Part shown: in pieces, positions 18,483 to 37,491 of the stretch | Numbering within the stretch: position 1 is the first letter of the stretch | Layout: each line of letters starts with the position of its first letter | Source: a virus | Reading direction: 5' to 3' (one strand) | Virus record (IMG/VR): IMGVR_UViG_3300048509_000011 | Span: 1-37,626 of that record | Length of the DNA: 37,626 nt | The notes under the pieces: model-generated | Seen by the model: the letters and a program-made list of their open reading frames with translations, nothing else | Database searches by the model: none | What the model was told of the DNA's origin: nothing | Translations under genes and position numbers: made by a program

Positions 18483-18994
18483 GTAAAGATAACTTTCAGC
18501 ACTGCTTAGAGCTTATATTGCACCACGAAGGCGGCTGGGTAAACCACCCCCGAGATCCAGGTGGCGAAACAAACCTTGGTGTAACTAAACGTGTCTACGA
18601 AGAGTGGGGCGGCACTAAGGATATGAAGGAGCTTACACCAGAAGATGTTGCTCCAATATACGAGCAGAACTACTGGGGGAAAGCTAAGTGTGATCAACTA
18701 CCTGCAGGACTTGACCTCGCTGTTTTTGACTGGAGTGTAAACTCTGGGCCTGGGAGAGCGGCTAAGAAACTACAAGAAATGATTGGCACAGAGGTAGATG
18801 GCGGCATTGGCCCCAATACTTTACGCGCTCTTAATGAATATGTCGAACATCACGGGATTGAGAATACACTTGAAAATTACAAGAATATCAGGCAAAGTTT
18901 CTATGAGTCCCTCTCTACATTTGATAGCTTCGGTAAAGGCTGGACTCGCAGAAATAATGAGACGCTTGAAGCTGCGTTAAAAATGGTGAACTAA
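18479..18994 (+). CDS. Endolysin, GH108 N-acetylmuramidase with PG-binding domain
   Basis: This 171-residue enzyme would cut the MurNAc-GlcNAc bonds of host peptidoglycan. The N-terminal GH108 domain shows the HHEGGWVNHPRDPGGETNLG motif with catalytic Glu17. The C-terminal domain carries a TEVDGGIGPNTLRAL stretch typical of the small peptidoglycan-binding part of this family. No signal peptide is present, so export depends on the holin encoded just upstream. The length is normal for the family. Confidence 0.93.
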   Translation: MSKDNFQHCLELILHHEGGWVNHPRDPGGETNLGVTKRVYEEWGGTKDMKELTPEDVAPIYEQNYWGKAKCDQLPAGLDLAVFDWSVNSGPGRAAKKLQEMIGTEVDGGIGPNTLRALNEYVEHHGIENTLENYKNIRQSFYESLSTFDSFGKGWTRRNNETLEAALKMVN

Positions 18995-21369
18995 TGGCGT
19001 CAGTAAAGCTTACAAAGTTTCTAGGCGAAGCACCGAAGATATCTTCGGAGTTGCTACCTGACGGCGTGGCCCAAGAAGCCTTTAACGTAAAGCTTTACTC
19101 TGGCGACTTGCTACCTTACCACACGCCTAAAGAAGTGGATAATACAGAACGTAACGTTGAGGCTAAAACCCTTCATGCGTTGCGTGACCCCACCTCCAAT
19201 GCACTTGTGTGGCTGTCTTGGACTACTGATGTTGACATTGCTGTTGCGTCAGATAGCGCAGACAACGCGCAGAGGTTCTACTACACAGGTGACGGAAAGC
19301 CTAAAGTATCTGACTATGCGTTAGCCACAGCTGGCAGCGAACCATACCCAGTTACTAACGGATATTACGATTTAGGGATACCGCTCCCTACCACTACACC
19401 TAGCGTGACAGCAGCATCTTTTACTGTTGTTAACTCTACTCACTACGAGCGCGACTCAGGCAATACAGCCACTTTTTTCTGTAATACCGCCCACAACTTA
19501 CGTACAGGCAACATTGTAACTATACGTGACTTTGGTACTTCTGATGAGGCTAAAGGGTTTAACGCCAAGAACGTAGAGATTACTGTAACAAGCGCTACAG
19601 AGTTTCAGTATTTTAGCTCCGGCGATCAAGTCAGTAAGACATCTAATAACACAGGTAGAGCAGACCTTGCAGGCAACACACAAATTAGAACTTATATTTT
19701 TACGTTTGTCACTCCGTGGGATGAAGAATCCATACCGTCCAATGTATCTAACGAACTATACATCAAAGAAGGCCAAACAGTAACTGTCTCCTCCCTGCCC
19801 TCGGCTAAACCGTCGGGGGATAACTTTGTCCGTGGTATTAGGTTGTACCGAAGCGTAGCTTCTGCAGCTGCCACGGACTTCTTTTTATTAGCAACGTTAT
19901 GGTTCCCTATCAGTATTGCCACTGTGGCGAGAGCTAGTAACGTATCTACAATAGCAACAAATTTTCCACACAACTTTATTGTTGGCGACAGGTTTAAGAT
20001 TAAAGATTGTTCCACTGCGTCGTTTAACATTACAGACGGTGTAGTTACTGCGATTGCTGATGACTACACATTTAGTTACGCACAGACTGCTACTGATGTT
20101 GGAACGACCAATGCTTCTGCGGGTGCTGTGTACCATGATGTATCTGAAAGCCTTGATGATGCTGCTAGGTACTGGGGTGACGCTAACTATAACTTTACAG
20201 ATGATTTTAATGTATCCAGCTTAGAAACTATTATTCCATCAGAAGAGTATGACCCACCACCTGATAATATGCAGGGGCTTATAACTTCGCATAACAACAT
20301 CTTGGTTGGGTTTTTTGGTAATCAGCTGTGTTTCTCATTCCCTGATACGCCGCATGCGTGGCCAGAAAAATACAGAATAACATTTGATTCCGACATTGTA
20401 GCGATTGCGTCTGTTGCAGGTTACGTGCTTGTACTCACAGAAGACTTCCCACATCAAGTATCTGGTAACGACCCAGCAACAATGGTGTCAGCACGTATTG
20501 ACACGCCATACCCATGCTTATCCAAACAGTCTGTTGTTAATATGGGGTACGGTGTTGTTTGGTCTACACATGGAGGCCTTGCTACATGGAGTCCTAGTGG
20601 GGGCGGTGTCCAACTTATAACTCAGTTTGTCCACGACTGGGATACTTGGAACGCATCACTAGACCCGTCTACCATTGTTGGGCATTTTTATAACGGGAAA
20701 TACTTTGGGTCTCACAGCACCAAGTCATTTATATTTGAGCGCGATGATAAAGTCGGTGGGTTTTTTGTACAGATTCAATACCGGTTTAGCGCAGCCTTTA
20801 CAGACCCTGAATCCGGCATCATGTACTACACTCATGGTAATGACGGTGAGATATATGAGTGGGATAATACTGGGGAAGTCCTCTCACCTATGGAGTGGAA
20901 GTCCAAAACCATTGTCACCAAAGACTACCTTAACCTAGGTGCGTTTAGGGTAATTGCTGACTATGATACATCTGCGCAGGAGGCTGCTAATATTATTGCC
21001 TACAACTTAGGGCTAGCAAACTTTAACCAAACTATCTGGAATAGAAGTCAGCAGTTAGGCACACTTAACGGGCCTACTAACTACCAGAGTGGCGGCGTTA
21101 CTTTTACTATTGGCGGTTCAATTAACACATACGTCATAAACGGCGACCCACAAACACAGTACCAGAAAGCTAACACGGGGACTCAGCCTGTAACGTTTAG
21201 ACTTTGGGTAGATAAACAGCTTGTCTTCCAAGGGTCTATACAAACTTCTGACATATTCAGATTGCCAACTGGCTACAGATCGGATACATTTGAAGTGGGC
21301 GTGTCAGGTTCCGCTCGTGTAAGAGCTATACACTTTGGAGAGACACCCTACGGATTGAGGACATCATAA
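18994..21369 (+). CDS. Tail nozzle / stabilisation protein (putative)
   Basis: This 791-residue, beta-rich protein overlaps the endolysin stop by one base. The N-terminal pattern KFLGEAPKISSELLPDGVAQ, then AFNVKLYSGDLLPY, is common at the start of marine podovirus tail proteins. Later segments such as ITSHNNILVGFFGNQLCFS and YTHGNDGEIYEWD look like beta-propeller blades, as in the nozzle proteins of T7 and P22. It would form the tube tip through which DNA exits. The assignment rests on size, fold impression and context. Confidence 0.7.
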   Translation: MASVKLTKFLGEAPKISSELLPDGVAQEAFNVKLYSGDLLPYHTPKEVDNTERNVEAKTLHALRDPTSNALVWLSWTTDVDIAVASDSADNAQRFYYTGDGKPKVSDYALATAGSEPYPVTNGYYDLGIPLPTTTPSVTAASFTVVNSTHYERDSGNTATFFCNTAHNLRTGNIVTIRDFGTSDEAKGFNAKNVEITVTSATEFQYFSSGDQVSKTSNNTGRADLAGNTQIRTYIFTFVTPWDEESIPSNVSNELYIKEGQTVTVSSLPSAKPSGDNFVRGIRLYRSVASAAATDFFLLATLWFPISIATVARASNVSTIATNFPHNFIVGDRFKIKDCSTASFNITDGVVTAIADDYTFSYAQTATDVGTTNASAGAVYHDVSESLDDAARYWGDANYNFTDDFNVSSLETIIPSEEYDPPPDNMQGLITSHNNILVGFFGNQLCFSFPDTPHAWPEKYRITFDSDIVAIASVAGYVLVLTEDFPHQVSGNDPATMVSARIDTPYPCLSKQSVVNMGYGVVWSTHGGLATWSPSGGGVQLITQFVHDWDTWNASLDPSTIVGHFYNGKYFGSHSTKSFIFERDDKVGGFFVQIQYRFSAAFTDPESGIMYYTHGNDGEIYEWDNTGEVLSPMEWKSKTIVTKDYLNLGAFRVIADYDTSAQEAANIIAYNLGLANFNQTIWNRSQQLGTLNGPTNYQSGGVTFTIGGSINTYVINGDPQTQYQKANTGTQPVTFRLWVDKQLVFQGSIQTSDIFRLPTGYRSDTFEVGVSGSARVRAIHFGETPYGLRTS

Positions 21370-23099: not shown

Positions 23100-24551
23100 A
23101 TGACAGCTATCACAATAAACCCGATGGTGGTTGCACTTAGGCCCACTAACGGAACTATCATAAGACGTATTCAACCAACTGAGCACGGCGGCGGGGTTAA
23201 GAAAGTCCTAGCTGTCGTTGTTGCAGTTGCTATCCCAATCGCAGCACCTGCTATTGCAAGCTCGCTTGTAGCCTCAGCAGGTATTTCTGCTATATCGGCT
23301 TTTGCTGCCACTACTGTGGGAGCGGCGGTGACTTCGGCTGTTGTCGGTGCAGGACTCGGAGCTATCTCAGCTAAAGTTATGGGCGGCGATGTTAAGTCAG
23401 GCGCGATTATGGGCGCAATCGGCGGCGGTATCGGTGGTTACGGTGTTGCACAAAGTACCGGAGCGGGTCTTGGTAACGTGGCAGACACAGGCATTCAAGC
23501 GACAGCTAATAACACTTTCGGCACCACCTTTGGTCAGACCGGAACAGAAACAGCTGGACTAAATACTACAGATGCAGGCAATACGCTAACCAGTGACGCA
23601 ACCGGTGGTACACTAGCAGACGCTACAACAGGCGAAGCCACACTGCAGAATGCTAGCTTTAGAAATCCTGAAGGTGTAAGCGACGCAGCCGCTAAACTAT
23701 CTAATAATACAACAACTGGAACTGCAAAAACAGCGATGGAACAACTTGGCCCTGACGCTACGTTTGCGGCTAAGTCAGGTGCATACATGAAAGACGCAGG
23801 CTCAGCGCTTGTCAGTAAGGTCACAGACCCTGCTTCCTTGGCTAGTTTGACAATGCAGGCCGGTGCTCAACTACTTGGTGCGGCAATGGCACCTGATCCA
23901 GAGATGCCACCAGAACAGCGTGAGCTACTTGAGATGCGTAAAACTGAACTCGCAGAGCTTAAAGAACGCGATGAGGCTGCGTTTAACGCCCAGATGGATG
24001 CGGCTAAGGGTTTCTTACAGCAAGCAGAGCAGTACGATCCTACATACATGGCGTTCCAAGCGGCTAACAAAGAAGCCATTGACCAACAACGTAAGCTGCG
24101 TGAGCAGTACCGTAAAGCTTCATTGCAGAGCGGTGGCCGTGACATCAGCGAAGCAGAAAAGCGCCGTATGAGCCTAGACTCAGCGCGTAATGTTAGCTCT
24201 CGCTACGACGAAGGATTCCAGAAGGGTCTAACTGCTCAGAACCAAGTGACACAAGCTGGGCTATCAGCGATTCCTAACTCTGCAAACTTTGCTACGTACA
24301 CTAACGCACTTCAGAGTTTGTCTCAGGATACTCAGAAAGCTGAAGACGCAGCTATCCAAGCTTCACAAGGTGCGGGTAAAAATATCTCTGACTTGTTTGC
24401 TGGGTTCAATACCACATCGGGCACTGGCTACGGCGCAGATAGCTATTGGAACAGCAACAAAGCAAAAAAGAAAAAGAAGGCTGGGGTTAATACAAACACT
24501 TTCCAAGGTATCAACGGCCCAGTTGAGCTTAAAGCTGATAATTACGCATAA
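23100..24551 (+). CDS. Internal virion protein A (hydrophobic, glycine zipper)
   Basis: This 483-residue protein is behind a strong GGAGGT site. Residues 30-130 are hydrophobic and Gly/Ala-rich (VLAVVVAVAIPIAAPAIASS; then GAIMGAIGGGIGGYGVAQ), a glycine-zipper-like pattern of membrane insertion. The rest is Ala/Thr-rich and then strongly helical (ELLEMRKTELAELKERDEAA), ending in a Lys-rich tail. It would be stored in the capsid and ejected to form part of a channel across the host envelope, as T7 gp14-gp16 do. Function is inferred from composition and order. Confidence 0.65.
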   Translation: MTAITINPMVVALRPTNGTIIRRIQPTEHGGGVKKVLAVVVAVAIPIAAPAIASSLVASAGISAISAFAATTVGAAVTSAVVGAGLGAISAKVMGGDVKSGAIMGAIGGGIGGYGVAQSTGAGLGNVADTGIQATANNTFGTTFGQTGTETAGLNTTDAGNTLTSDATGGTLADATTGEATLQNASFRNPEGVSDAAAKLSNNTTTGTAKTAMEQLGPDATFAAKSGAYMKDAGSALVSKVTDPASLASLTMQAGAQLLGAAMAPDPEMPPEQRELLEMRKTELAELKERDEAAFNAQMDAAKGFLQQAEQYDPTYMAFQAANKEAIDQQRKLREQYRKASLQSGGRDISEAEKRRMSLDSARNVSSRYDEGFQKGLTAQNQVTQAGLSAIPNSANFATYTNALQSLSQDTQKAEDAAIQASQGAGKNISDLFAGFNTTSGTGYGADSYWNSNKAKKKKKAGVNTNTFQGINGPVELKADNYA

Positions 24552-24563
24552 GGAGTAAACCGA

Positions 24564-27080
24564 ATGGCATTGCTCGGAAATTTTATAGGTGGCGCACTGG
24601 GGATGCAGTCGGCGGAGGACTACGAAGGAGCGGTAACGTCTGCTAGTAGACTACAAGCACTGCAGCGTAAGAACCAGTTTACCAAAGACATGATGAACTC
24701 TGCTAAGCCTGCAGACCCTGCGGCTGTGCGGCAAGTTGCCCCCTTTAACCCCAATGATGCGTTTGCGTTTGACAACCTACAACAACCTGGCCTGCGTAAT
24801 ATTCCTGTACCACCTGTCGATCCTGTCGATCAAGAAGGTGGTGTGGCGCAAGGTATAGATGAAGCGGATAAAGTAACAGACCAAGAGGGGAAGCCGCCCC
24901 TAGAAGATCCATATATAGAGCCGAAAGCACCTGTTGTCCCTGAGTTTGACAGCGGCAAAACTGTTATTAACCCTAACGATAACGAAAATATTCCTAATAA
25001 CCAGATTCCTAAGCCTGAGTTCCAAGACCCTGACCTGTCTAATTTGTTTCCAGACGGCGTGGTTTCTGAGAATGATATCTCAGATGAAGATAAAACTGAT
25101 CTGCATGTGCAGGGATTCCCGTGGAAAGTTCTAGATAAGAACGGCGGCAAGGTAGTTATCCACAACGGTGTTGAGTACGACATCAAGAAGATAGGTGACA
25201 GCTACGTTCTTACTAACCGAATGGGTATGCCGAATTACCCACTAACTGACGCGTTTACTAAAGGCCGTAGTCGAGGTATTACAAACACTGAGATTGTTCC
25301 CCGAACTAATAGTGCTGCGGACGATCTAGCTGCTGCTACAGTAGATAACAAGTATATCGCTAATGCACTAAAGTCTATTAAGAACAACAAATTTCAGAAT
25401 GGTATTACTAACTCTACTACTGCGTTAGCTCGCCAGTTTGGTATTGACCAAGGTGAAGCTTTAGCACTGCTAGCTATTGAATCCAACTTCGGCAACGTAA
25501 AATTCGACAGCCGCTCATCTACTCGTGGGCCTCTGCAGATACAAAACTTAGCCTTTAAGGATGTTAAGGCGTACTTCAAAGGCGCTAACCCTGCAAACTC
25601 AGGGGTGAGTGATGAGCAGTGGTCACGCATGACTTCAGCTGCTGCAAACCTACCTAAAAACCACGCTAACCTAACCGATACTAACGACCAAATTGCTGCT
25701 GGCCTGCTGTATTTTAAGATGATTGGCCTAAAGGGCGTAGATAAAAAGTTTCAAGCTGCTGCATATTTTGATGGTTATGGGAAATACATCGGCGTCAACG
25801 ATATCTCAGACGTTAAAAAGTTTTCAGGCCCAAACACCTTAGCTACAGTTACTCAATATAACTCTGCGTTCTTAGGTATGCGGGGCTACATGGGGCAAGT
25901 GGCTGATTATTACTACCCGCAAGGCGGTGCACTTGCTGGGGCTTCTACTACGACACAGGGTAATACTGTAGGCCAACCCAACATGCCAACAGACGATCAG
26001 ATTGTAGCTGAAGCTGATGCAGCATTAACTGGCACTAGCACTACGACACAGGGTAATACGGTTGGTATGCCTAGTGTGCAGACACAAACACAAATACAAA
26101 CACAAACAGTAACCGATACAGATGGTACTGAAAAAGAATCTATCGCCACTACTGAGGTAAAAGAGCCTGAGCAGGAGATTGTTAAGTTCCTGCAGAATCC
26201 GCCTAACATCGGGATCGAAATGCAGAACCTGCTTAATGGTAGGAAGCTAGGAGTCGATAACCTTAATCGCCAGCTGCAAACTCTGAACGAACAGATCAAT
26301 GCTAACAATGCAAAAGCAGCTGAGTACGACAGGTTTGCAGATATTGCACTGGCCAACGGCCAGATTGCTACGTTTGAGAGGTATAGCGGTCTAGCTGACG
26401 GACTTATTAAACAGTCTAACGACCTACGCAACAGCGGCCTAGACGCTCAGAACCAAGCCCGAGTGGCTATGCAAGAGTTCGATAACAAGATGCTTCTAGT
26501 ACAGGGTGCGCAAGCCCTACAGGATTTATCCTTTGGCTCCACCGCTCGTGCAGGCGCAGTTCTGTCAGCGTTCTCTGGCTTGGATATTCAGATCGTGCCA
26601 CGTTCAGACGGCAAGTTTGATCTTATGGTTAATGGAAATCGTCAGCAGACATACACTATGGCTGAGCTATCTGATAAACTACAGCGTACCTACAGCCAAG
26701 CATATCGTGAAAGCCAGACTAAGCTACAGACAGAACGTCAGACATACTTGTTTGAAAAAGGCGTCGATCTTGAGTCTAAGCTTGCTGAACAACGTGACAA
26801 ACTACTGGGTGATCTTAAGATAGAGAACCTTAAAAACGCTTACGGTATTTATCTTGAAGAGCTTAAACAACGTAAGGGTGAGTTCAAAGCCCTTGGCGAT
26901 GGCTTCGCTTTAATCTATGATAATGGACAATACTTCTTACTTCAGCCAGAAGCTGTAGAAGAAACAATAAACGGCGAAAAAGTACGGAGGCCAAAGCTGA
27001 CCCCTCTTAGCCCTGGGCAAGCTCAGGCGTTAAACACACCAGAGGCAACAGCGGATGACTTCAAAGCCGCAGCAAAGTGA
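24564..27080 (+). CDS. Internal virion protein B with lytic transglycosylase-like domain
   Basis: This 838-residue protein has AAGGAG eight bases before the ATG. An acidic, Pro/Asn-rich part (about 50-175) precedes an SLT-like domain at about 285-420: LALLAIESNFGNVKFDSRSS with the presumed catalytic Glu306, followed by TRGPLQIQNLAF and a later AAYFDGYGKY segment. A Thr/Gln-rich linker (about 455-525) with a DNA-level repeat leads to long coiled coils (about 560-760). It probably opens peptidoglycan during DNA entry, as T7 gp16 does. The domain call is from motif order and needs a profile search. Confidence 0.75.
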   Translation: MALLGNFIGGALGMQSAEDYEGAVTSASRLQALQRKNQFTKDMMNSAKPADPAAVRQVAPFNPNDAFAFDNLQQPGLRNIPVPPVDPVDQEGGVAQGIDEADKVTDQEGKPPLEDPYIEPKAPVVPEFDSGKTVINPNDNENIPNNQIPKPEFQDPDLSNLFPDGVVSENDISDEDKTDLHVQGFPWKVLDKNGGKVVIHNGVEYDIKKIGDSYVLTNRMGMPNYPLTDAFTKGRSRGITNTEIVPRTNSAADDLAAATVDNKYIANALKSIKNNKFQNGITNSTTALARQFGIDQGEALALLAIESNFGNVKFDSRSSTRGPLQIQNLAFKDVKAYFKGANPANSGVSDEQWSRMTSAAANLPKNHANLTDTNDQIAAGLLYFKMIGLKGVDKKFQAAAYFDGYGKYIGVNDISDVKKFSGPNTLATVTQYNSAFLGMRGYMGQVADYYYPQGGALAGASTTTQGNTVGQPNMPTDDQIVAEADAALTGTSTTTQGNTVGMPSVQTQTQIQTQTVTDTDGTEKESIATTEVKEPEQEIVKFLQNPPNIGIEMQNLLNGRKLGVDNLNRQLQTLNEQINANNAKAAEYDRFADIALANGQIATFERYSGLADGLIKQSNDLRNSGLDAQNQARVAMQEFDNKMLLVQGAQALQDLSFGSTARAGAVLSAFSGLDIQIVPRSDGKFDLMVNGNRQQTYTMAELSDKLQRTYSQAYRESQTKLQTERQTYLFEKGVDLESKLAEQRDKLLGDLKIENLKNAYGIYLEELKQRKGEFKALGDGFALIYDNGQYFLLQPEAVEETINGEKVRRPKLTPLSPGQAQALNTPEATADDFKAAAK
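25947..26059 (+). repeat. 20-bp direct repeat in the linker of internal protein B
   Basis: ACTACGACACAGGGTAATAC occurs at 25947-25966 and 26040-26059, 93 bases (31 codons) apart and in frame. It encodes a TTTQGNTV element twice. A Thr/Gln microsatellite-like stretch (about 26085-26110) follows the second copy. The pair flanks a flexible hinge and could mediate deletion or expansion of it. Confidence 0.7.
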
Positions 27081-27088
27081 GGTAGGTA

Positions 27089-30000
27089 ATGGCTAAGGCG
27101 GGACTTAAAGCATTTGGTAGCCCTACCCTTGCAGCTATGGACATAGAGCCGCTAGGCAATCCATATGATCCTGCTCCTAATATAGGGATGGGTAATCTTC
27201 TAGGTCAAAAAGAAGCTATCGGCAGAGAGATTGATGCTGAGTACGCTAAAGGTATGTCTCAGTTCTCTATGCCTGAGGTAAAACGCCCTGCTCCTACTGG
27301 CCCTAATGTTCTGTTTGACCCACAGCAGAACAAGATGTTTGTGAATGGCTCGCTGTTTGACTTAGACGACGCTGACAATGCTCTTAAGTCTGAGCAATTC
27401 CTAGATGGCCCACGCCAAGCTCCCCCTACTGGTAGCTGGCAGCAAGTTACACCGCAGGAATACGGCAAGTATATCAAATCTATTAAAGACCCTACGCTTT
27501 CCCGCAGATTCGCTGAGAACTTTGACACTGGTATGGCACAGCTACGCTCCCTATTTGGCGCTGGCTCTGTACTTGTTGGCGCAGAAGAGTATGGCCTTGG
27601 GGTCATGGAGCGTGCGGAAGAAGACATACGCAAGAACTCACCATTCTACACAGAGTTTACCGATATTGGTATGGGTGACGCAGACATCGGCCCAGTTGAC
27701 TGGTTTGTTGGTGTCCTTGGCGCACAAGGCCCGATGCTTCTTGAGACTATCGCTGCAGGTGCTATCGGTTTCGTTGCAGGTTCCGCCACAGCAGGGCCAG
27801 GATTAGGCTCAGTCGGCGGTACTATTGCTGGTATTACAGGTAAGTCAGCATTTAAGCAAGCTGTCAAGGAAGCAGCTGAAGCCTACGCTAAAGAAAAAGT
27901 TAAAGGTAAAGCAGCAGCTAAAGCCTTTATGAAGACTGACCAAGGTAAAGTTCTTAAGCGTGCATCAGGCATTGCGGGAGCAGTTACGTTAGGTTACGCA
28001 AACAACTTTGGCATCGCTTCATCAGATGTTTACTCAGAGCTTCTCGAAAGCGGTGTAGACCCTAGCGACTTTGGAGCCAAGATGACTGCGCTTAGCGCAG
28101 CTGTTCCGTATGCACTACTAGATACAATCCCTGAGTTTATCGTAGGTGCTAAGATATTTGGCAACATAGCCAGAGGCTCTAAAGGTAGCCGCTTACGTCG
28201 CGGTGCAACAGGTGCTGGTGTGGGCGGCACACTAGAGGGGGCCACTGAAGCAACCCAAGAATCTATTATTATGGGTGCTACGAGCGCCTACACTGGTCGT
28301 GAGTACGAATCAGATGAAACTCTATCACGCCTAATCAATTCATTTGCCGCAGGCTTTGCTATTGGTGCGCCTATCGGTGGTATCGCTAACCTTAAGTCTA
28401 ATAAAGAAGCTGACATCCTACAGGGTGCGCCTACTGAGCAGGAGCAAGGAACACAGCAGGGTGAAGGCCCAGTACAACAGGAGCTATTTGAAGAAGGCAC
28501 TGGACTTGGTACTGCGCCTGAGCTTGACCCAAATATTGCGGCATTGCGGGCACAGGATGAAGCCCTAAGACAGGAAGTTATTACTGACCTTGGTCAAGCC
28601 CAACAAGACGAGGCTATTAGGCAAGAGGTAGCGGGTGTTGCTAACCAGCCCCCTACACCAGTAAACCCTGCAGAACAAGAACAAGCAGTACAAAACGAAA
28701 TTAGGCAGCGTGAGATAGCTGAAGCTAACCGCTTAGACAGAGCTATGGAGGCAGGACAGCCCCTGTCTGATCGTACGGGCGGAGTGCAACCAGACCAAGG
28801 TGATTTGTTTGCTCTTGATGGGCCTGCATATACCCCACCTACACCCCCAGTGCCGCCAGCACCTCCAGTTCCCGTAGAGAACGTAAGTGAGGCTATTCAA
28901 CAAGCTGCAACACAGCAGCCGCAGGCACAACCAAACCTATTACAGCAGCGTATGCAAGAAGCAGTTGCACGCCAGCAAGAACAAGAACAGCAAGCACAAC
29001 AGCAAGCACAGCAAGCCCAGCAAGAGGCTGAGATGCGAGCAATGGAAGACGCACGGATTGAACAGAATAACCGCGAAGTCGAGAACGCGCTTGCCTTACA
29101 GCAGTCGCAGAACGAAATCGCGGCTTATGAGGCGGAGCAATTAGGCAGGCAGCAGGCGGAAGTTTCTCCACCGCCTGCTCCGGTTGCGGGTCTCCCTACC
29201 GTACCAGTTCCAGTTACTCCGCCTCGCCAGTTAGACTTGTTCCGTGGCCAAGTTAAGCTGCCAAAGATAACTAAGGCGGAACAAAAAGAAATCACCAAAC
29301 AGAATCGTCTACTCCGCAAGCAGGAGCGTGAGGCTCAGAAGGCAGCTGAAGAAGCAGCAAGCCCAATGACCCCAGCGGAAGCGCGTGCAGCAGGGCAAGG
29401 TATTCTATTTACACAACGTGGCGAGCCGTCAGTTGCTGCCCTCAAGGGTGCCGGTACTACAGTGCCAGCCACACCAGAACTTATTCAGACAACCCCTGCT
29501 GAAGAGACCGTCGTTGCGCAACAGCAAGAGATCAACAGGCTTCAACAGCAGGTGCAGGAGCAACAAGAGATTAATAAGCTCCAGCAGCAAGTACAGGAGC
29601 AGCAGAATGTACAGGAGCAAAGCCCAGAAAGAGTGGATGGAAGCCAACCTACCGAAAGTAGCGAAGAAGTTCCAGTCAGCAACGCCAGAGAACGCGCAGC
29701 TGCCGCAACAAATCGCTCTCAAGAGCGTCTCAGAGAAGCGGAGAATCGCAAGGCAGCAAGCAGCCCTGCGGAAACAGAAGCAGCCGTTCGGGGATCTGGG
29801 GCCGAACAAAGTGTACAGGAAGATAGCGTACAAAGGCAACCTGTCGTAGACCCAGACAGCGAAGCAGCACTTGTACAAGAGTTGGTATCTGAGTTTGAAT
29901 CAGAGCAAGACTCCGGTGAACTACGCGGGCTTGCTGTGTCTCTACTGGATTACGCATATTGGTCTGCCGCTCCTAGTGGTACAAACGCAGAGGCCACGGA

Positions 30001-33000
30001 CTACAGAGCCGCAAGGACAGCGGCTAAAGCTTTTGTGGATAAAACATTTACAGCCCCTGAGACTTTCTCCGAAGGCCAAAAGAAAATACTAGACGAGACC
30101 TTTGTTAAGTTCGCCACATACGAAACAGAAACGCGTTCTTCCACACAACCGTGGTTTGAGTACGCTACACGCCGTGGCCTAGTAGATAAAATTGCTGACC
30201 CAAAGAACGGCATAACAATTACAGGTGCTCCATATAAAGCTATGGCTAACCCAGCACCAGCAGCTAACGTGTCACAGTCTAGGTCTGAAGACTCCTCTAC
30301 TATGGCTGACGCAGCCAAGGCAGCAGACGATAAACGAGGTAGCTTCTACAGAGCGGACAACAGCCAGCCTATCACTGACCCTCTTCCAAAGTTGCGCGTG
30401 CAGGCTATCGCTAAGAAAGCTATCTCTAGTCTAAAGATTAAGCCAAAGGTATTTGTCTATAAAGATCAAGCAGAGCTTAAAGCTGCTAACCCAGAACTGT
30501 TTGAGCGTGCAAATAACTCACGCCCTGATGGTGACTTTGAGTTTACCCCTGCAGCAGGATTCTCTGTGGGCGATGAAATCATTTTGTTTAGTGACAACAT
30601 TAAAACAGAACAGCAGGCACAGTTTGTTATAGCGCACGAGACTATGGGCCACTTTGGCTTCCGTGCTTTCATGGCTGAACCACAACTTAATACAGTCCTA
30701 GAAGAAATCTACCGAGGTGATTCTTCCGTCCGCGCAATGGTTGACCGCCGCGTTGAGATGGGTATGAACAAGCTAGAAGCCATCGAAGAAACAATGGCTG
30801 ACAAAGCAGCCGACCTAGATTCTAGCCTTATCAAACGAATGTGGTACGCAATCAAGGATGCCCTAGAAGCTATGGGTGCAACCTTTGAAGATGACCTGGC
30901 CAGGTACATGATTAGACAATCACGCAGAAACTTGTTGCAGGGTGGTAGCGGTCTAGTAAGCATGCAGGAGCTAGGGAATAACCTTAAGAGCTTACAGTCT
31001 GACAACACGTTGGGACGCTACTCACTTGTAGAAGATACTGCAGACGCAGCCTCACGAGCTATGGCATCGCACGCTTACGTACAACGTGGCGGTCAGTACG
31101 GCGGCATGAACGCTCTGAAGAACATGCTTAAGAACGCAAAGGATATAGAGAACATCCGTGATGTCGGTGTGTTCCTTGGTAAGCTAGCTGAAAACGTACA
31201 GTCTCTGGACAACATGGCTACCAGAAGCGATGGCCTCCAGCAGGTGTTTAATATATTCCAATCTCGTTCAAGTAGAGCAAGACGCTTCCTGTCTAACTAC
31301 GAAGGTATGACTGCGTTCTCCCACTCTGCGTTCTCGTACACAGCAGACGGCGGCGGAAAAGAAGGTGGGCCAACAGAAGCTGAGCTACTACAAGCAGGTC
31401 AGCTGCTAGCATATGGCGCATTGCACAAGCAGAATACTGTTACTGACGGAGAGATCCGTGATGTGGGTGATCTTGTTATTGACGACAACGGAACCATAGG
31501 CATCAACAGCGTTAACTTCACAGCCGCACAAGAAGCAGGAAAGCTAACACGCGAGGACTTCCAAAATGGATTACGCGTAACACTTGGCGACCAAGAACAA
31601 AAAGTATTTACAGAAGATACGTGGACACCTGACTTCACAATCACAGACCGCGTATGGAAAATCTACACTGAACAAAGAACAGCAGTAGACCAGTCTGCTC
31701 TTGATGTGGTTCGCTCTACTATCGAAGGGGCTATAGCCCAACGTGACGCTACTATTAACCAATTCAAAAAATCTTACGGTATGTCAGATATAGACTCTAT
31801 GGTCATGCGTAAGGTCATGGAGCAGTACGTTCGTCTGTATCAAGAAGGTGCGAGACAGGAAGGCGGTAGCTTCCAATACAAGAGCGAGTCAGTAACCAAT
31901 GCCCGTACGTTCCTAAGAGAATTTAACCGCGCACTGTTTCAGAAAGGTAAGGTGCAGGACTTTAAGCAGGGTAGAGAGGACGCTGCTAAGTTCCAAGGCC
32001 CAGAGTTCCAAGATATTATTGATGGATTGGACTCACTGTCTGCTAAGAACTACTCAAAGAGCCAAGCTAACCGCGTAACATCTGCGATTGGTAACTTGTA
32101 TCTTCTCGATGTACAGGCACAGAACGCACAGTTTAATGCTAAGCGTACGATAATGACATCGTATGTACCGTTCACACGCCGTGGCAACCAGCAGATTAGG
32201 GTTGTGGCGTTTGACGCTAACGGCGAAGTAGTCAAGTTGGATGATGTGTGGCGCACAGTCATGCCGTACTACCAAGCTGGTAGCCGTAAGGATGCCCGCG
32301 AGATAGCTGACAATCTAAATACAGAGTTTGGCGACACCGAGTTTACTCTTACAGATGAGTCAGGTGCAGAGCGAGCCGTAACCTTCCGAGCAGTGACCGA
32401 GACAACCCGTAAAGGTTCAGTCTTAGGTCAGCAGTTTAGTCTGACTGACTTCACGAATACACTTGCTCGTTTAGATGTAAACATAAACCCAGAAGAACGT
32501 GAACGTATTGTGGAGGCTTTGACTGCCCAGACTCAACGTGCTCGTAGGAGCATCCAGAGAGCGGGTGTTAAAGGTTGGGATCAAGACGTTGTACGTAGCA
32601 CATCAGAATATCTTGAGACGCAGGGGCACATTGCAGGGCAGGCTTTCTACCGCCACCGTCTAAACAACATCATGTTGGACGACAGCTTATGGCGTGGTAA
32701 CTCAAAGCAAATGCAAGACTTGTACGCTCAGACAGAGCGCACTGACCTAACACCAGAGCAGATGCGTAAAGCCCAAAATGATTATGACCGCTATGCCTAT
32801 ATGTATCAGTATATGGCAGGTGATGGTATGCCACAGGCTACTAACCGTGTGTCTGGCAAGGCTATGAAGAACCTAGGTAGAGGTGAAGACTACAGAGGCA
32901 CAGCACTCGGACTACAGCAATGGTATGCTGACAGTGCGAACATCAACGACTCGACTGAGGACTTACTGTCAGGTGAAACTGGCTCTCGTTTGAAGATGTG

Positions 33001-34612
33001 GACTGTTGTTGCTCAGCTTGGTGGCTCAATCGCCACTGCTGGTATCAACCTTGTCTCTATGGCTACACACTCTATTCCTTACCTCGGCACTTACAACGAG
33101 GCTAGAGGGTTTGGAGGCGGGTTCGGAATCAGTAACGCCACTATGGAAATGCAGATTGCCGCTCGTAACATGGGTGATCGTAAACTAGCAGACGCTGTAT
33201 ATGTCAATAGACTAGCGAGTAATGAAGCTCTGCGGAAGAAACATAAGATAACTGAGGATGAGGCATTGTTCCTAGCAGACGCCACATCAGAAGGTGTTCT
33301 ACAAGCGGCACAAGCTAACGCTCTAGTTGGTACAGCAAGGGGTGGAATCAATAGCAACAAGCTACAAGGCGCAATCAAACTGTGGATGGGTATGTTCTCA
33401 TACACAGAGCAACTCAACCGTAGAGCCACGGCTTTGGCGGGCTATCGTCTGCATATGAAGCGGGCTATTGCTGGCACACCTAACTTCGACAGTCTAACAA
33501 CTGAGCAGAAGAATGAACTACTAACAGAGTTTAGGGCAGAGGCCACTGCGTTTGCTCGTACTGCTGTGAATACTTCGCAGGGTGAATACGGCATGTTTAA
33601 CCGCCCAGAGATGGCGCGTGGCAACGTGGGTCAGTATCTGTTTATCTATAAGCAGTTCTCTATCATCACAATTCAGATGCTAAAAGGTCTGAGTCCTCAA
33701 GGTAGACTGTACTTTATCGGTATGCTTGTGCTTATGTCCGGACTTAAAGGTCTACCATTCGCAGATGACCTAGCTGATTTGATTGACACACTCATGCAGA
33801 AGTTTGGCATCACATCGGCGGGCGTAGAGGAATCTCTTATCACGCTGTTTGAAGACCTAGCCCCAGGCTCTGCAAAGTTCATCATGCGAGGCGGGCTAGA
33901 CCAGATTGCGGCAGGTACATTCTCAACCCGACTAGGCTTTGGGGATATGCTTCCGTTGACTGGTGCGGGTAGGGCTGGCGCTGATACAGGTCGAGAGCTT
34001 GAGAACTTCTTCGGGCCTATTTGGTCTGGTGTTGAAGGTGCGTTTGTTACAGCAGGAAACCTAACTAAGTATGGTGCAGGTGCAGTCGGTCTTAGAGACC
34101 AGACACTGACGCTAACTGAAGCATTCCGCGAATCACCAATAGCCGCCATGCGCGGCATAGTAGACGCATCTACTTATTATGATTCTGGCGTAGTGACAAA
34201 CTCGCAAGGCAAAGTCATAGACCCTTCCGCTAGTTGGGGGCAGATACTCTTTAGGGCGGCAGGTTTCTATCCTGCTGTAGCCACAAGAGAGAACGACATC
34301 GTAAGATTGGGTAAGTACAAGGCTGACTATATCAAGGCACTTCGGGCTGACTACACTGCGGCCTATGTAAAAGCGTCTGTTGAGGATGATCTAGACCGTA
34401 TGCTAGACATTGAGATGATGGTCATGGACTGGAATGATATCCACGCTAACACTGCGTTTGAGTTCAAAGACTTTAGGTCTAGAGCAAAGCGGTCTGCTAA
34501 GTCTGCCAAGATGCCTACAGGCCAGAGGTACTTGAAGACTGCGCCTACCAATATACGTTCTGACCTGCAAATACTTATGGAAATATACGGACTAAATGAT
34601 GAAGGCTTTTAG
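27089..34612 (+). CDS. Giant internal virion (polyvalent-like) protein with zincin motif
   Basis: This 2507-residue protein is the last late gene. Residues about 200-440 are hydrophobic Gly/Ala-rich segments with GGTLEGATEATQES, a pattern of phage polyvalent proteins. A Gln/Pro/Glu-rich disordered region spans about 480-850. At 1183-1188 HETMGH, and at 1233-1238 EETMAD, form a gluzincin-like pair (two His, downstream Glu) like the HExxGH...EExxAE of M49 peptidases. Residues 1300-1960 are helical and unrecognised. The C-terminal part has hydrophobic helices near 1970 and 2181-2235 (QYLFIYKQF, GLPFADDLADL). It is likely ejected into the host. Peptidase activity is inferred. Confidence 0.75.
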   Translation: MAKAGLKAFGSPTLAAMDIEPLGNPYDPAPNIGMGNLLGQKEAIGREIDAEYAKGMSQFSMPEVKRPAPTGPNVLFDPQQNKMFVNGSLFDLDDADNALKSEQFLDGPRQAPPTGSWQQVTPQEYGKYIKSIKDPTLSRRFAENFDTGMAQLRSLFGAGSVLVGAEEYGLGVMERAEEDIRKNSPFYTEFTDIGMGDADIGPVDWFVGVLGAQGPMLLETIAAGAIGFVAGSATAGPGLGSVGGTIAGITGKSAFKQAVKEAAEAYAKEKVKGKAAAKAFMKTDQGKVLKRASGIAGAVTLGYANNFGIASSDVYSELLESGVDPSDFGAKMTALSAAVPYALLDTIPEFIVGAKIFGNIARGSKGSRLRRGATGAGVGGTLEGATEATQESIIMGATSAYTGREYESDETLSRLINSFAAGFAIGAPIGGIANLKSNKEADILQGAPTEQEQGTQQGEGPVQQELFEEGTGLGTAPELDPNIAALRAQDEALRQEVITDLGQAQQDEAIRQEVAGVANQPPTPVNPAEQEQAVQNEIRQREIAEANRLDRAMEAGQPLSDRTGGVQPDQGDLFALDGPAYTPPTPPVPPAPPVPVENVSEAIQQAATQQPQAQPNLLQQRMQEAVARQQEQEQQAQQQAQQAQQEAEMRAMEDARIEQNNREVENALALQQSQNEIAAYEAEQLGRQQAEVSPPPAPVAGLPTVPVPVTPPRQLDLFRGQVKLPKITKAEQKEITKQNRLLRKQEREAQKAAEEAASPMTPAEARAAGQGILFTQRGEPSVAALKGAGTTVPATPELIQTTPAEETVVAQQQEINRLQQQVQEQQEINKLQQQVQEQQNVQEQSPERVDGSQPTESSEEVPVSNARERAAAATNRSQERLREAENRKAASSPAETEAAVRGSGAEQSVQEDSVQRQPVVDPDSEAALVQELVSEFESEQDSGELRGLAVSLLDYAYWSAAPSGTNAEATDYRAARTAAKAFVDKTFTAPETFSEGQKKILDETFVKFATYETETRSSTQPWFEYATRRGLVDKIADPKNGITITGAPYKAMANPAPAANVSQSRSEDSSTMADAAKAADDKRGSFYRADNSQPITDPLPKLRVQAIAKKAISSLKIKPKVFVYKDQAELKAANPELFERANNSRPDGDFEFTPAAGFSVGDEIILFSDNIKTEQQAQFVIAHETMGHFGFRAFMAEPQLNTVLEEIYRGDSSVRAMVDRRVEMGMNKLEAIEETMADKAADLDSSLIKRMWYAIKDALEAMGATFEDDLARYMIRQSRRNLLQGGSGLVSMQELGNNLKSLQSDNTLGRYSLVEDTADAASRAMASHAYVQRGGQYGGMNALKNMLKNAKDIENIRDVGVFLGKLAENVQSLDNMATRSDGLQQVFNIFQSRSSRARRFLSNYEGMTAFSHSAFSYTADGGGKEGGPTEAELLQAGQLLAYGALHKQNTVTDGEIRDVGDLVIDDNGTIGINSVNFTAAQEAGKLTREDFQNGLRVTLGDQEQKVFTEDTWTPDFTITDRVWKIYTEQRTAVDQSALDVVRSTIEGAIAQRDATINQFKKSYGMSDIDSMVMRKVMEQYVRLYQEGARQEGGSFQYKSESVTNARTFLREFNRALFQKGKVQDFKQGREDAAKFQGPEFQDIIDGLDSLSAKNYSKSQANRVTSAIGNLYLLDVQAQNAQFNAKRTIMTSYVPFTRRGNQQIRVVAFDANGEVVKLDDVWRTVMPYYQAGSRKDAREIADNLNTEFGDTEFTLTDESGAERAVTFRAVTETTRKGSVLGQQFSLTDFTNTLARLDVNINPEERERIVEALTAQTQRARRSIQRAGVKGWDQDVVRSTSEYLETQGHIAGQAFYRHRLNNIMLDDSLWRGNSKQMQDLYAQTERTDLTPEQMRKAQNDYDRYAYMYQYMAGDGMPQATNRVSGKAMKNLGRGEDYRGTALGLQQWYADSANINDSTEDLLSGETGSRLKMWTVVAQLGGSIATAGINLVSMATHSIPYLGTYNEARGFGGGFGISNATMEMQIAARNMGDRKLADAVYVNRLASNEALRKKHKITEDEALFLADATSEGVLQAAQANALVGTARGGINSNKLQGAIKLWMGMFSYTEQLNRRATALAGYRLHMKRAIAGTPNFDSLTTEQKNELLTEFRAEATAFARTAVNTSQGEYGMFNRPEMARGNVGQYLFIYKQFSIITIQMLKGLSPQGRLYFIGMLVLMSGLKGLPFADDLADLIDTLMQKFGITSAGVEESLITLFEDLAPGSAKFIMRGGLDQIAAGTFSTRLGFGDMLPLTGAGRAGADTGRELENFFGPIWSGVEGAFVTAGNLTKYGAGAVGLRDQTLTLTEAFRESPIAAMRGIVDASTYYDSGVVTNSQGKVIDPSASWGQILFRAAGFYPAVATRENDIVRLGKYKADYIKALRADYTAAYVKASVEDDLDRMLDIEMMVMDWNDIHANTAFEFKDFRSRAKRSAKSAKMPTGQRYLKTAPTNIRSDLQILMEIYGLNDEGF

Positions 34613-37467
34613 TCTTTGATAACTTGAAGCTGACCGTAAGCTAAGTCATCTGCCGCTACATCTGCACTTTCTAACAAACTCTGGAAACGTGGATGTGTCA
34701 GATTAAATCCAATCACATAAGACTGCGCCAGTTTAATTGGCGTGTCCTTACCAAGGGATGCTTTCTCTGACTTGGGTGTGGCTACTACGTTCTCCTCAGC
34801 AAGTTCCTGTTTGAATGACTTGTAGTCAGCTCCTCGCACTGACAACCATTTGCGGAAGTGAGTGCGGTCAACCATCATAGTACCCTTGTCAAACGGATCA
34901 GCCGCAGACTTACGGAATACATCAAGGCGAACTCTTACATCGCCCCTTGGTATACGGCTATAATCTGGCTGTGGTTTCTGACCTGAGGTGTGCATTACAG
35001 TAACCTGTGCGTCTGCACTATCAGCCATGTACTCTGCGATAAGATCGAATGAGTCCACTTGGTTTTCCTGTACAGTCCTACGGATAGCACCAATCTGTGC
35101 CAGTACCCACTCGGTTGCTTGGCGGTAGTCGAACTTTATCAAGCCCCAGTCATTTGCCAGTTTCAAACCTAGGTCTGCTAAGATGATAGACTGTTCCCAA
35201 TACCGTTCTTCACCGCTGAATCTAGCTTTGTATTTACTGTGGAATGTATTGGTAGCCTCTGCTATCGCCGCATTGATACCGTCCTCGCCCATCTCTACTA
35301 GGTTCTTTATATACAGCCTACCTGCGTGACCATAGTTAGCGTGGATTGCTTCGTATATCTTACGCCCTGCTTCTGAGTTCCTTGTGAAGATAGCACTCTG
35401 CGGTACTGTCACCTCTAACATACGAGCCATCTGAGCGTCTGTGTCTAGTCCTGATGCAATCAGTTTACTCTGTAGAGATTTGTTAGTGGACACCATGACA
35501 GGTGTAGCCCAAGTCTTAGAGTCACGCTCTTCTGCGTTACGGTTGAGCCTAGCCTTATCCCTGCCTTGAGATACCCAATAGCAGAAGTCACCGACTTCTT
35601 TGTCTTGCATCATGGTAACTTCGTCGATGGTTAACGGAAGGTTAGCGTATGTACCAAGTCGTGAGAACAGGCTGTTCTGTGTGTACTTAGCCGCAAAGTG
35701 TAGCTTGTCGGGGTCGCCATATATAGACTGCGCCCAATACTGCGCCAGTGTTTTACCTCCACCTGTTGCACCATACAGGGATATAGTCAGACCTTTGAGG
35801 CCAGTGAAATTATATAGTGGTGCTGAGAAGCCTACGCCTAACGCAAACATGTGCGCCTTGAGGTCAGCCTTCTCCATTATAGATGTAAGGGTAGCCCAAG
35901 ATTCTAGCGTTCCCTTTACTGGGTACAACTCGTTGCCTTGACGCTGTACTCCTGCTGATAGATTAATGTTTTCTTCTTCGACTGCACCATTAGCGTCTCG
36001 CTTAATTAGTGTGTCGCCTATAACAAATGCCGTGTTCTTTTCTTTCCATCCCATAGTTGAGTAGAGGTTGGTCATGGCACGGATTTGTCTAAGCTCTTCC
36101 ATATATGACCGCATCATAAGTTGAAAATACTCCGTTTGCCTTTTGTTATATAGGACAATACCTTGGTCTGCTATCGCTGTAGCGAACTCACGACTGCCCT
36201 CTGCTAGATACGCCTGTCTTAGCGAAATCTCTTGCCACCCCATGTGTGGTCTATTCCAATGAAACCTCACAGTCTCATAGCCTAGCGAGTGGTCTAGTCC
36301 ATACCCAACTGGGTATATGTCGAACTTGCATACATCTATATCGGTATCGTCTATAGTAACTTTGATGCCATCCACTGTACGCTTGAATGGTTTAGGCATA
36401 GGGATAGCATTAGCAACACTATCTAACGCCTTCTGTGGAACAGCCACCTCTTGATACTGCACCCCAAGTCTGGCAGGCGAACCGATTTTGCCTTTGAACT
36501 TACAGCCTCTGCACCCATTAGGGCGGTCTGCTTCAAACTTCGCACATGTTGTTGGCCCTGTTGTGGACTGCCTCCAGTGAGCAAGTTTGTGTAAGGTAGT
36601 CTTCTCATCATACGACGGATGCTGATTGCTCCACTCCTTTGCTGTAGATTCTGGGTCGATACAATGTGCCGCTACACCAATGATGTCATACCATAGTGGC
36701 TCATCTACATCCCCTTGGTTAGCTATAGCCCATTCAATCTGCTTACACTTACTTGCTACTACAGAGCCGACAGCAGGTGGGAAATCTTGCTTGACTGCTA
36801 GATTATCCAGCAACGTGCTCTCACGAGTGCGATCTATACTGGCTGCAGCTGAGGGCTTGAAGTAATAACTTAGACAATCCCGCAATGTCTGAACGCTTAC
36901 TGGCTCAGCATCTACAAGCATCTTAACTTCGTTACCACCCTTGGTGTTTATAGTACCAACAGGACGCAAGACTCTTGCGCTGTCAGCAGGTACAGCAGGG
37001 TCAACCTCAAAGCCTTTTGCTACACAGGCTTCCTTCAATGCTTCGGCTAGAGGCTTCCATTCCTCTGGCTCTAACTCTGCATCAAGAACCCAATAGGCGT
37101 GTAGGCCATTGCCCGAATGAATGATTAGTGGTTTAGGTAAGCGCATCTCAGCGACAAACTTACCTAGTGCAGTTAGTCCTTCCTTCCATGTGGGGAACGG
37201 TTTGCCCTCTCCGCAATCCACATCGACAGCAACTAGCTTAGTTGCACGAACATTATCTTGCTTTCTATTACCCTTGGTATTGAAAGCCGACACAGCGAAA
37301 TAGACATTCTTGTCTGGCTGTGACGATGATAGCCTTATACAGGCTTTAGCGAGTTCTTCTACCGTATCAAAAAAGCCCTGTTGTACTTTGTTATCTGGGC
37401 TTATCAGTGTCGTTACATAGTATCCTTCAGACGGTAGAACCCGCTGTAAAAAACTCAGCGTGTCCAT
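34609..37467 (-). CDS. AEP primase fused to DUF927-type helicase
   Basis: This 952-residue replication protein would prime and unwind phage DNA. ATG 37467 is preferred (AAGG eight bases upstream) over GTG 37482. Residues about 1-195 are an archaeo-eukaryotic-type primase: VAVDVDCG with Asp82/Asp84, SGNGLHAYW with His123, and a RVLRPVGTINTK segment. Cys308, Cys319 and Cys322, perhaps with Cys241, suggest a zinc module. The ATPase part has Walker A GATGGGKT (566-573) and Walker B LTIDEV (Asp615, Glu616), like DUF927. The C-terminus is a small unrecognised domain. Its stop end overlaps the convergent giant gene by four bases. Confidence 0.85.
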   Translation of the reverse strand: MDTLSFLQRVLPSEGYYVTTLISPDNKVQQGFFDTVEELAKACIRLSSSQPDKNVYFAVSAFNTKGNRKQDNVRATKLVAVDVDCGEGKPFPTWKEGLTALGKFVAEMRLPKPLIIHSGNGLHAYWVLDAELEPEEWKPLAEALKEACVAKGFEVDPAVPADSARVLRPVGTINTKGGNEVKMLVDAEPVSVQTLRDCLSYYFKPSAAASIDRTRESTLLDNLAVKQDFPPAVGSVVASKCKQIEWAIANQGDVDEPLWYDIIGVAAHCIDPESTAKEWSNQHPSYDEKTTLHKLAHWRQSTTGPTTCAKFEADRPNGCRGCKFKGKIGSPARLGVQYQEVAVPQKALDSVANAIPMPKPFKRTVDGIKVTIDDTDIDVCKFDIYPVGYGLDHSLGYETVRFHWNRPHMGWQEISLRQAYLAEGSREFATAIADQGIVLYNKRQTEYFQLMMRSYMEELRQIRAMTNLYSTMGWKEKNTAFVIGDTLIKRDANGAVEEENINLSAGVQRQGNELYPVKGTLESWATLTSIMEKADLKAHMFALGVGFSAPLYNFTGLKGLTISLYGATGGGKTLAQYWAQSIYGDPDKLHFAAKYTQNSLFSRLGTYANLPLTIDEVTMMQDKEVGDFCYWVSQGRDKARLNRNAEERDSKTWATPVMVSTNKSLQSKLIASGLDTDAQMARMLEVTVPQSAIFTRNSEAGRKIYEAIHANYGHAGRLYIKNLVEMGEDGINAAIAEATNTFHSKYKARFSGEERYWEQSIILADLGLKLANDWGLIKFDYRQATEWVLAQIGAIRRTVQENQVDSFDLIAEYMADSADAQVTVMHTSGQKPQPDYSRIPRGDVRVRLDVFRKSAADPFDKGTMMVDRTHFRKWLSVRGADYKSFKQELAEENVVATPKSEKASLGKDTPIKLAQSYVIGFNLTHPRFQSLLESADVAADDLAYGQLQVIKD

Positions 37468-37491
37468 TGTTGTTACCTTCACAGTTACGGA

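Follow-up and report, generated by a model that had tools for sequence, protein, structure and literature searches.

What is a pair of motifs that look like a zinc site, HExxGH and, some way further on, EExxA[DE], doing in the middle of a single protein of 2507 residues encoded by the viral DNA of IMG/VR record IMGVR_UViG_3300048509_000011 (positions 1 to 37,626 of that record, the whole 37,626-nucleotide stretch being called the window here)? I argue that residues ~1099-1290 of this giant protein almost certainly form a zincin-type metallopeptidase domain of the HEXXXH set, which Iyer et al. predicted in phage polyvalent proteins in 2017 (PMC5512222), and that the domain may act as a single-zinc protease that processes the giant protein or its packaged partners, an explanation to which, taken as a whole, I give a probability of roughly 55%. 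The kind of domain is already known; the member is new and is missed by Pfam, including its MPTase-PolyVal model. The argument turns on four features, listed here with the strand after the coordinates.

27089..34612, plus strand: giant open reading frame (ORF) carrying the zincin-like domain, 2507 amino acids (aa), with relatives in IMG/VR

30383..30958, plus strand: zincin-like metallopeptidase domain, aa about 1099-1290, predicted from alignment A4, an AlphaFold2 model and a profile match to the HExxH domain of the virion RNA polymerase (vRNAP) of phage N4

30635..30652, plus strand: HETMGH, aa 1183-1188, with predicted zinc ligands H1183 and H1188 and predicted general base E1184

30785..30802, plus strand: EETMAD, aa 1233-1238, with the predicted third zinc ligand E1234 (30788-30790)

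Both motifs sit exactly where the sequence-only reading of this DNA had put them, with E1233 the 45th residue counted after H1188. When the protein, which has only 11 His, was shuffled 20,000 times, HE..GH arose in one shuffle and any HE...H in 67, while HE..GH followed by EE..A[DE] within 36-75 residues never arose; a DNA pattern for HExxGH has one occurrence in the window where 0.08 would be expected. A second HExxH, at 31053, lies out of the frame of the giant ORF and was rejected.

Are these residues kept among relatives? An initial scan of viral sequences found six, with domain identities of 65-100%, and a profile built on those six brought the total to 13 loci, including a group at 41% identity (L010-L014) in which an insert separates both motifs and the Glu motif is still kept. 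With two Bacteroides phages and one Achromobacter phage added, the profile reached 128 relatives, 80 of which were kept, and the pooled domains (n=98) were dereplicated to 67. Since the scan for the 128 relatives required HE[TAV][MV][GA]H[FHY]G, conservation of the HE and the GH is forced in that set and is not usable as evidence. The E1234 column was no part of the pattern, and it holds Glu in 66 of the 67 dereplicated domains, being gapped in the last (L094, a broken ORF). Around it, the A1237 column has Ala in 57 and Ser in nine of 66 domains, the E1233 column has Glu in 56, Asp in seven and Arg in three, and E1234 follows the first His at a distance of 50-69 residues in 65 of the 67 (242 in L014 and 29 in the broken L094). 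In alignment A4, which consists of the window and 60 of the 66 other dereplicated rows (omitted were L014 for its insert, the named phages L015, L016 and L017, the short L050 and the broken L094), H1183, E1184, H1188, G1190 and E1234 are invariant, the first four being partly forced by the scan pattern.

Because of this circularity, relatives were recruited again through the C-terminal domain alone, giving 18 loci, four of which (L101, L111, L114 and L115) end before the zincin-like region. HExxGH and EE..A are kept in all 14 loci that hold it, which amount to 11 distinct domain sequences in eight groups at 90% identity, one of them the window's own; four of the 14 (L108, L112, L113 and L116) were newly found and carry HE[TA]LGH, unreachable by the earlier pattern because of the Leu at motif position 4. 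Loss of the His and Glu residues in close homologues had been named beforehand as one outcome that would sink the idea, and it was seen in 0 of the 14. The independent evidence for conservation is thus E1234 in the pattern scan together with the C-terminal-only recruitment. Scanning with the sequence that follows the motif returned 12 loci, all on contigs found before, and a scan of genome contigs returned 109 matching stretches with no relatives among them; tblastn of the whole protein against the phage collection gave 48 records, matched through the C-terminal part in the 40 rows listed, and the peptidase region gave nine at E <= 10, of which two fell below 0.01.

Some relatives are peculiar in their own right. 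The insert between HEAIGH and EEYMA at L010:9394-9450 (also in L011-L014) holds a Tat-signal-like stretch, SRRGFLKGAG..., with a PF10518 match at E 0.0028 that falls below the Pfam cut-off; such a stretch is odd within a giant virion-type protein, and no other example turned up when 127 ORFs of at least 900 aa were checked with a simple pattern. Two chains appear to hold a pair of such domains, namely the L108 ORF (798-9527), with an HExxH motif, HELGH, at aa 980 besides the HExxGH domain at aa 1582, which suggests two zincin-like domains, and the L083 ORF (1-12528), with two HExxGH-type domains at aa 2057 and 3018. In L036 (5220-8792 and 8671-11772) and L094 (8830-9255 and 9105-9986) the giant gene falls into two overlapping ORFs that differ in frame, the break lying in or close to the peptidase domain and being due either to sequencing frameshifts or to true splits.

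A known virion protein, the vRNAP of phage N4, has an HExxH domain at 2124-2375 (C1), with HELVH starting at residue 2228, and its chain also contains, at another place, a low-complexity linker (PMC12633501). With an N4 profile made of N4 and 10 of 219 matching records (nine of the ten relatives are classed as Schitoviridae), hhalign aligned the window family to the N4 HExxH domain at probabilities of 94.4 and 94.9% (E 8.9e-8 and 4.3e-8, over 173 and 174 columns), against 0.3% for an unrelated control, and superposed the A-x-E-E-x-x-A of the window on the A-x-N-E-F-M-A of N4, placing the Glu of NEFMAW opposite E1234. Among nine segment pairs compared with a smaller alignment, the peptidase-peptidase pair alone matched (40%, P 3e-4), the others having P >= 0.18. 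A further alignment, A7, comprises the window and 30 of 34 candidate loci, with L036, L050, L054 and L099 omitted. The profile comparisons together argue that the zincin-like domain is shared with N4 vRNAP, whereas for the large helical C-terminal part no relationship was detected. Homology of the C-terminal part to N4 domain C2, considered because the layouts of both proteins look alike, was rejected on the eight non-matching pairs. A match to N4 from the beginning of the PLxRFG region, with P 0.013 when long profiles were used, disappeared in the focused test.

The marks of the HEXXXH set can now be read off. Two His and a Glu are present in the window domain and in all 14 loci that are free of the pattern circularity; the Glu lies on a later helix after a variable insert; and homology to the polyvalent metallopeptidases (MPTases), of which N4 vRNAP is an example, is found by hhalign at 94-95% and is weaker with shallower profiles. 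The likeness to polyvalent-protein metallopeptidases that the sequence-only reading had noticed is thereby borne out by conservation, the N4 match and the AlphaFold2 fold. From the 61-row alignment AlphaFold2 built a model of mean pLDDT 79.6, with ten-residue means of 89-98 over model residues 11-150 and a poor C-terminal part, in which the elements run helix, strand, two helices, two strands, HExxGH helix, more helices and the E1234 helix; this predicted three-stranded sheet, HExxGH helix and later Glu helix agree, in order of secondary structure, with the zincin core described in PMC5512222.

Among the 50 rows listed by VIA-align the solved neighbours include Certhrax (Z 7.2), lethal factor (5.6-7.1), PPEP-1/2/3 (5.4-6.1), IrrE/PprI (5.3-5.8) and MATCAP (5.7-5.8). 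The PPEP and lethal factor rows cover 138-162 residues at a root-mean-square deviation (rmsd) of 4.1-5.4 with Z 5.4-7.1 and a Foldseek E not below 0.46, and the 6zxj row has Z 5.6 over 184 residues at 7.7 A. Against predicted viral proteins there were 11 matches at E <= 0.001, and three of these carry the name large polyvalent protein. Searches of PDB sequences returned no match with the window protein, unrelated chains only, from E 0.096, with alignment A3, and a designed helical repeat (E 1.1e-5) and other helical or ribosomal chains with A4. A further A4 match, to N4 vRNAP at E 0.079 (11fw) and 4.1-4.2 (longer chains), was taken as chance because the match, at residues 1679-1741 of the 3500-residue chains, falls outside the HExxH domain.

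Could the domain instead be a dipeptidyl peptidase III (DPP III) exopeptidase of family M49, the family in which the sequence-only reading had sought the motif pair? The HExxxH pattern is the same and a Glu-Glu motif follows ~50 residues on; M49 enzymes have the EExxA[DE] motif, a defined ligand spacing and a two-lobed helical fold. However, PF03571 finds nothing in the record (its control matched one of 14 genomes, Bacteroides ihuae, above the cut-off), the Pfam scan of the whole protein is empty at E <= 10, M49 included, and the domain has ~190 residues against the 548 positions of the M49 model. M49 is likewise absent from the 25 listed of the 87 Pfam families matched by 61 members, so that membership of M49 was not upheld at sequence level and I regard it as practically dismissed. 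DPP III has no row among the matches listed by Foldseek or VIA-align, at most 50 rows each, and lists of that length exclude no family. The same 25 listed families include M48 (12 members), M76 (four), DUF6782 (three) and Zincin_1 (two), the metallopeptidase models among them reaching E 0.0043 at best and the remainder being other weak matches, a mixture that lends support by theme only. Of the 61 members, 48 match PHROG 14770, a family of unknown function, at E <= 0.1, although the window's own domain does not, and PF18818 (MPTase-PolyVal) matched 0 of 1 record at E <= 10, a weak test whose control matched three of 14 genomes, none above the cut-off. A non-peptidase metal enzyme of HExxH type, such as the kind cited beside zincins in the N4 structure paper, is very improbable, given that the predicted third ligand, a conserved Glu, sits on a later helix and that four of the 25 listed weak families are metallopeptidases, mixed with unrelated weak matches. 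Since HEXXXH peptidase domains in polyvalent proteins had been predicted in 2017, to call the activity undescribed, as was done at the outset, goes too far, even if Pfam misses the window domain.

How might such a site work? H1183, H1188 and E1234 would hold a single zinc in a gluzincin-type domain and E1184 would activate the water, while the extra residue of HExxGH would, on the familiar helix-bend argument from a Gly before the second His, be absorbed by a bend near the Gly/Ala at that place. In view of the homology and of the residues that never vary, a zinc peptidase site is likely, and on sequence and model I consider the predicted domain probably competent for catalysis; elsewhere HExxxH is proven to be catalytic, in the TMCP1/MATCAP peptidases (PMC10499314). 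The zincin fold might also be kept merely for packaging or assembly of the injected protein, perhaps around a structural zinc, much as in N4 vRNAP, where the region bearing the homologous domain is required to encapsidate a protein that is packaged uncut (PMC5512222). A zinc site with a structural role alone could do without E1184, however, and this general-base Glu is kept alongside the ligands in 14 of 14 loci where the scan did not force it, which makes a pseudo-enzyme quite unlikely.

What the domain might cut is suggested by the layout of the rest of the protein.

27089..28420, plus strand: N-terminal module, aa 1-444, common to about 16-25 dereplicated relatives by blastp coverage

28421..30337, plus strand: poorly conserved linker, aa 445-1083, rich in Q/E/A/P over much of its length, covered by 1-16 relatives

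30986..32974, plus strand: mostly helical region, aa 1300-1962, AlphaFold2 mean pLDDT 75

32981..34504, plus strand: PLxRFG domain, aa 1965-2472, NCBIfam NF032893, E 1.2e-37, 129.8 bits against a cut-off of 100

By the same blastp coverage the peptidase domain is shared with up to 68 relatives, a figure partly forced because most relatives were recruited by that domain, and the C-terminal part with 26-40; low-complexity masking lowers the count for the linker. For the helical region Foldseek gave nothing at E <= 0.001 and the highest Z was 5.5, over 99 residues; the PLxRFG region has tblastn matches in Pseudomonas F116 and other phages, and no membrane segment was found in the giant protein at a mean hydropathy of at least 1.6 over 19 residues. 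From its size, its gene position and its relatives, the protein is probably ejected into the host with the DNA. I propose that the domain would cut the giant protein itself or proteins packaged with it, either while the virion matures or at entry, and that by a cut across the variable linker (445-1083) the conserved N-terminal module (1-444) would be parted from the C-terminal part. This is the best guess because the domain adjoins a variable linker between two shared modules and because Iyer et al. argue for self-processing from DdrB of phage P1 (PMC5512222); taken by itself, a processing role has a little less than an even chance.

The principal rival is a peptidase delivered with the DNA that cleaves host envelope or defence proteins and not phage proteins. 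The recognised domains of the window protein are the peptidase-like and the PLxRFG domain, and several relatives hold several distinct domains: some giant proteins combine the zincin-like domain with pyrophosphatase, ADP-ribosyltransferase, PBECR5, SNF2 and LPD38 domains, among them L015 (ADP-ribosyltransferase, PBECR5 nuclease and pyrophosphatase) and L056 (pyrophosphatase and SNF2), company that would suit an effector. Toxin peptidases are among the nearest solved folds, and the option is listed by Iyer et al. (PMC5512222). Yet all 14 region-holding loci from the C-terminal-only recruitment have the domain, its placement between shared N and C modules suits virion maturation better than a swapped effector, and no result of this analysis suggests a host target, so that I hold a host-directed role to be unlikely.

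Several points weigh against processing by a zinc peptidase. In the fold comparison the neighbours are mainly zincin peptidases, but the best Z of 7.2 is modest, in the range where the tool cautions of a mere common arrangement, and Foldseek has no significant match among solved chains (best E 0.46). The top two rows (Certhrax, residues 18/19-239/266), the edema factor row and the lethal factor rows 1pwp_B and 6zxj_I match regions that I take to be N-terminal and not peptidase. The window protein matches no Pfam family at E <= 10, and long, shallow profiles of the C-terminal half match N4 weakly (3.3% in another region, 8.0% in the peptidase domain). No cleavage site was identified, conserved cleavage sites not having been searched for. 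N4 vRNAP, with its homologous domain, is packaged unprocessed (PMC5512222), the N4 structure paper reports no sign that the particles were degraded (PMC12633501), and cleavage of the injected DarA of phage P1 is credited to the prohead protease Pro (PMC12810830).

The genomic setting completes the picture, in that the giant gene comes after terminase, portal, capsid, endolysin and internal virion protein genes, with these neighbours.

18994..21369, plus strand: neighbour gene, 791 aa, PHROG 511 'internal virion protein', E 4.8e-122

23100..27080, plus strand: two ORFs (483 and 838 aa) directly upstream, candidate co-ejected proteins by position only

Neither upstream ORF matches a PHROG at E <= 0.01, or any Pfam family beyond one at E 0.41; the 838-aa neighbour (24564-27080), with no Pfam family at E <= 10, presumably resembles a lytic transglycosylase around IESNFGN...GPLQIQ, judged by eye. 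On the other side, a 957-aa DUF927/primase-helicase-like gene on the minus strand (34609-37482) overlaps the end of the giant gene by four bases with its own.

If it is active, the domain supports the 2017 prediction in that phages would process giant injected proteins with built-in zinc peptidases; the literature search found no test of that prediction for the HExxxH motif. Clear mutants follow from the invariant residues, and with alignment A4 the family can be recognised beyond the reach of the current Pfam models. More speculatively, and as a tentative idea on which I would not wager, the large HExxGH zincin clade that Pfam does not recognise might be a core maturation protease of giant injection proteins without a recognised RNA polymerase, releasing the N-terminal module across a disposable linker; it would then be the first phage HExxxH peptidase shown to act in cis, since none was found in the literature searched.

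Among known systems, M49 shares a motif of HExxGH type and differs in model match and size. MATCAP/TMCP1 has HExxxH and a later Glu in a gluzincin fold (PMC10499314), but it is a eukaryotic carboxypeptidase whose structural match is weak (Z 5.8, 121 residues, 3.9 A) and which had no sequence match in the PDB searches with A3 and A4. N4 vRNAP is likewise a giant virion protein with a low-complexity linker and a C1 domain that is homologous over 173-174 columns with the Glu of NEFMAW on E1234; it differs in having HELVH in place of HExxGH, a fusion to an RNA polymerase and a C-terminal part that is not detectably related. With the polyvalent HEXXXH MPTases as a set the domain has in common an HExxxH helix after a three-stranded sheet, a Glu on a later helix, a variable insert and residence in giant phage proteins (PMC5512222), while the window protein is without other recognised enzyme domains; the likeness is drawn at the level of the set, above that of the 12 published clades. 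The giant proteins of the Bacteroides phages BF1-TP2 and BS-TP4 have the same domain, with HEVVGH...EEYIA and HEAVAH...EEYLA respectively, BF1-TP2 differing in that it additionally carries InPase, ART-PolyVal, PBECR5 and LPD38.
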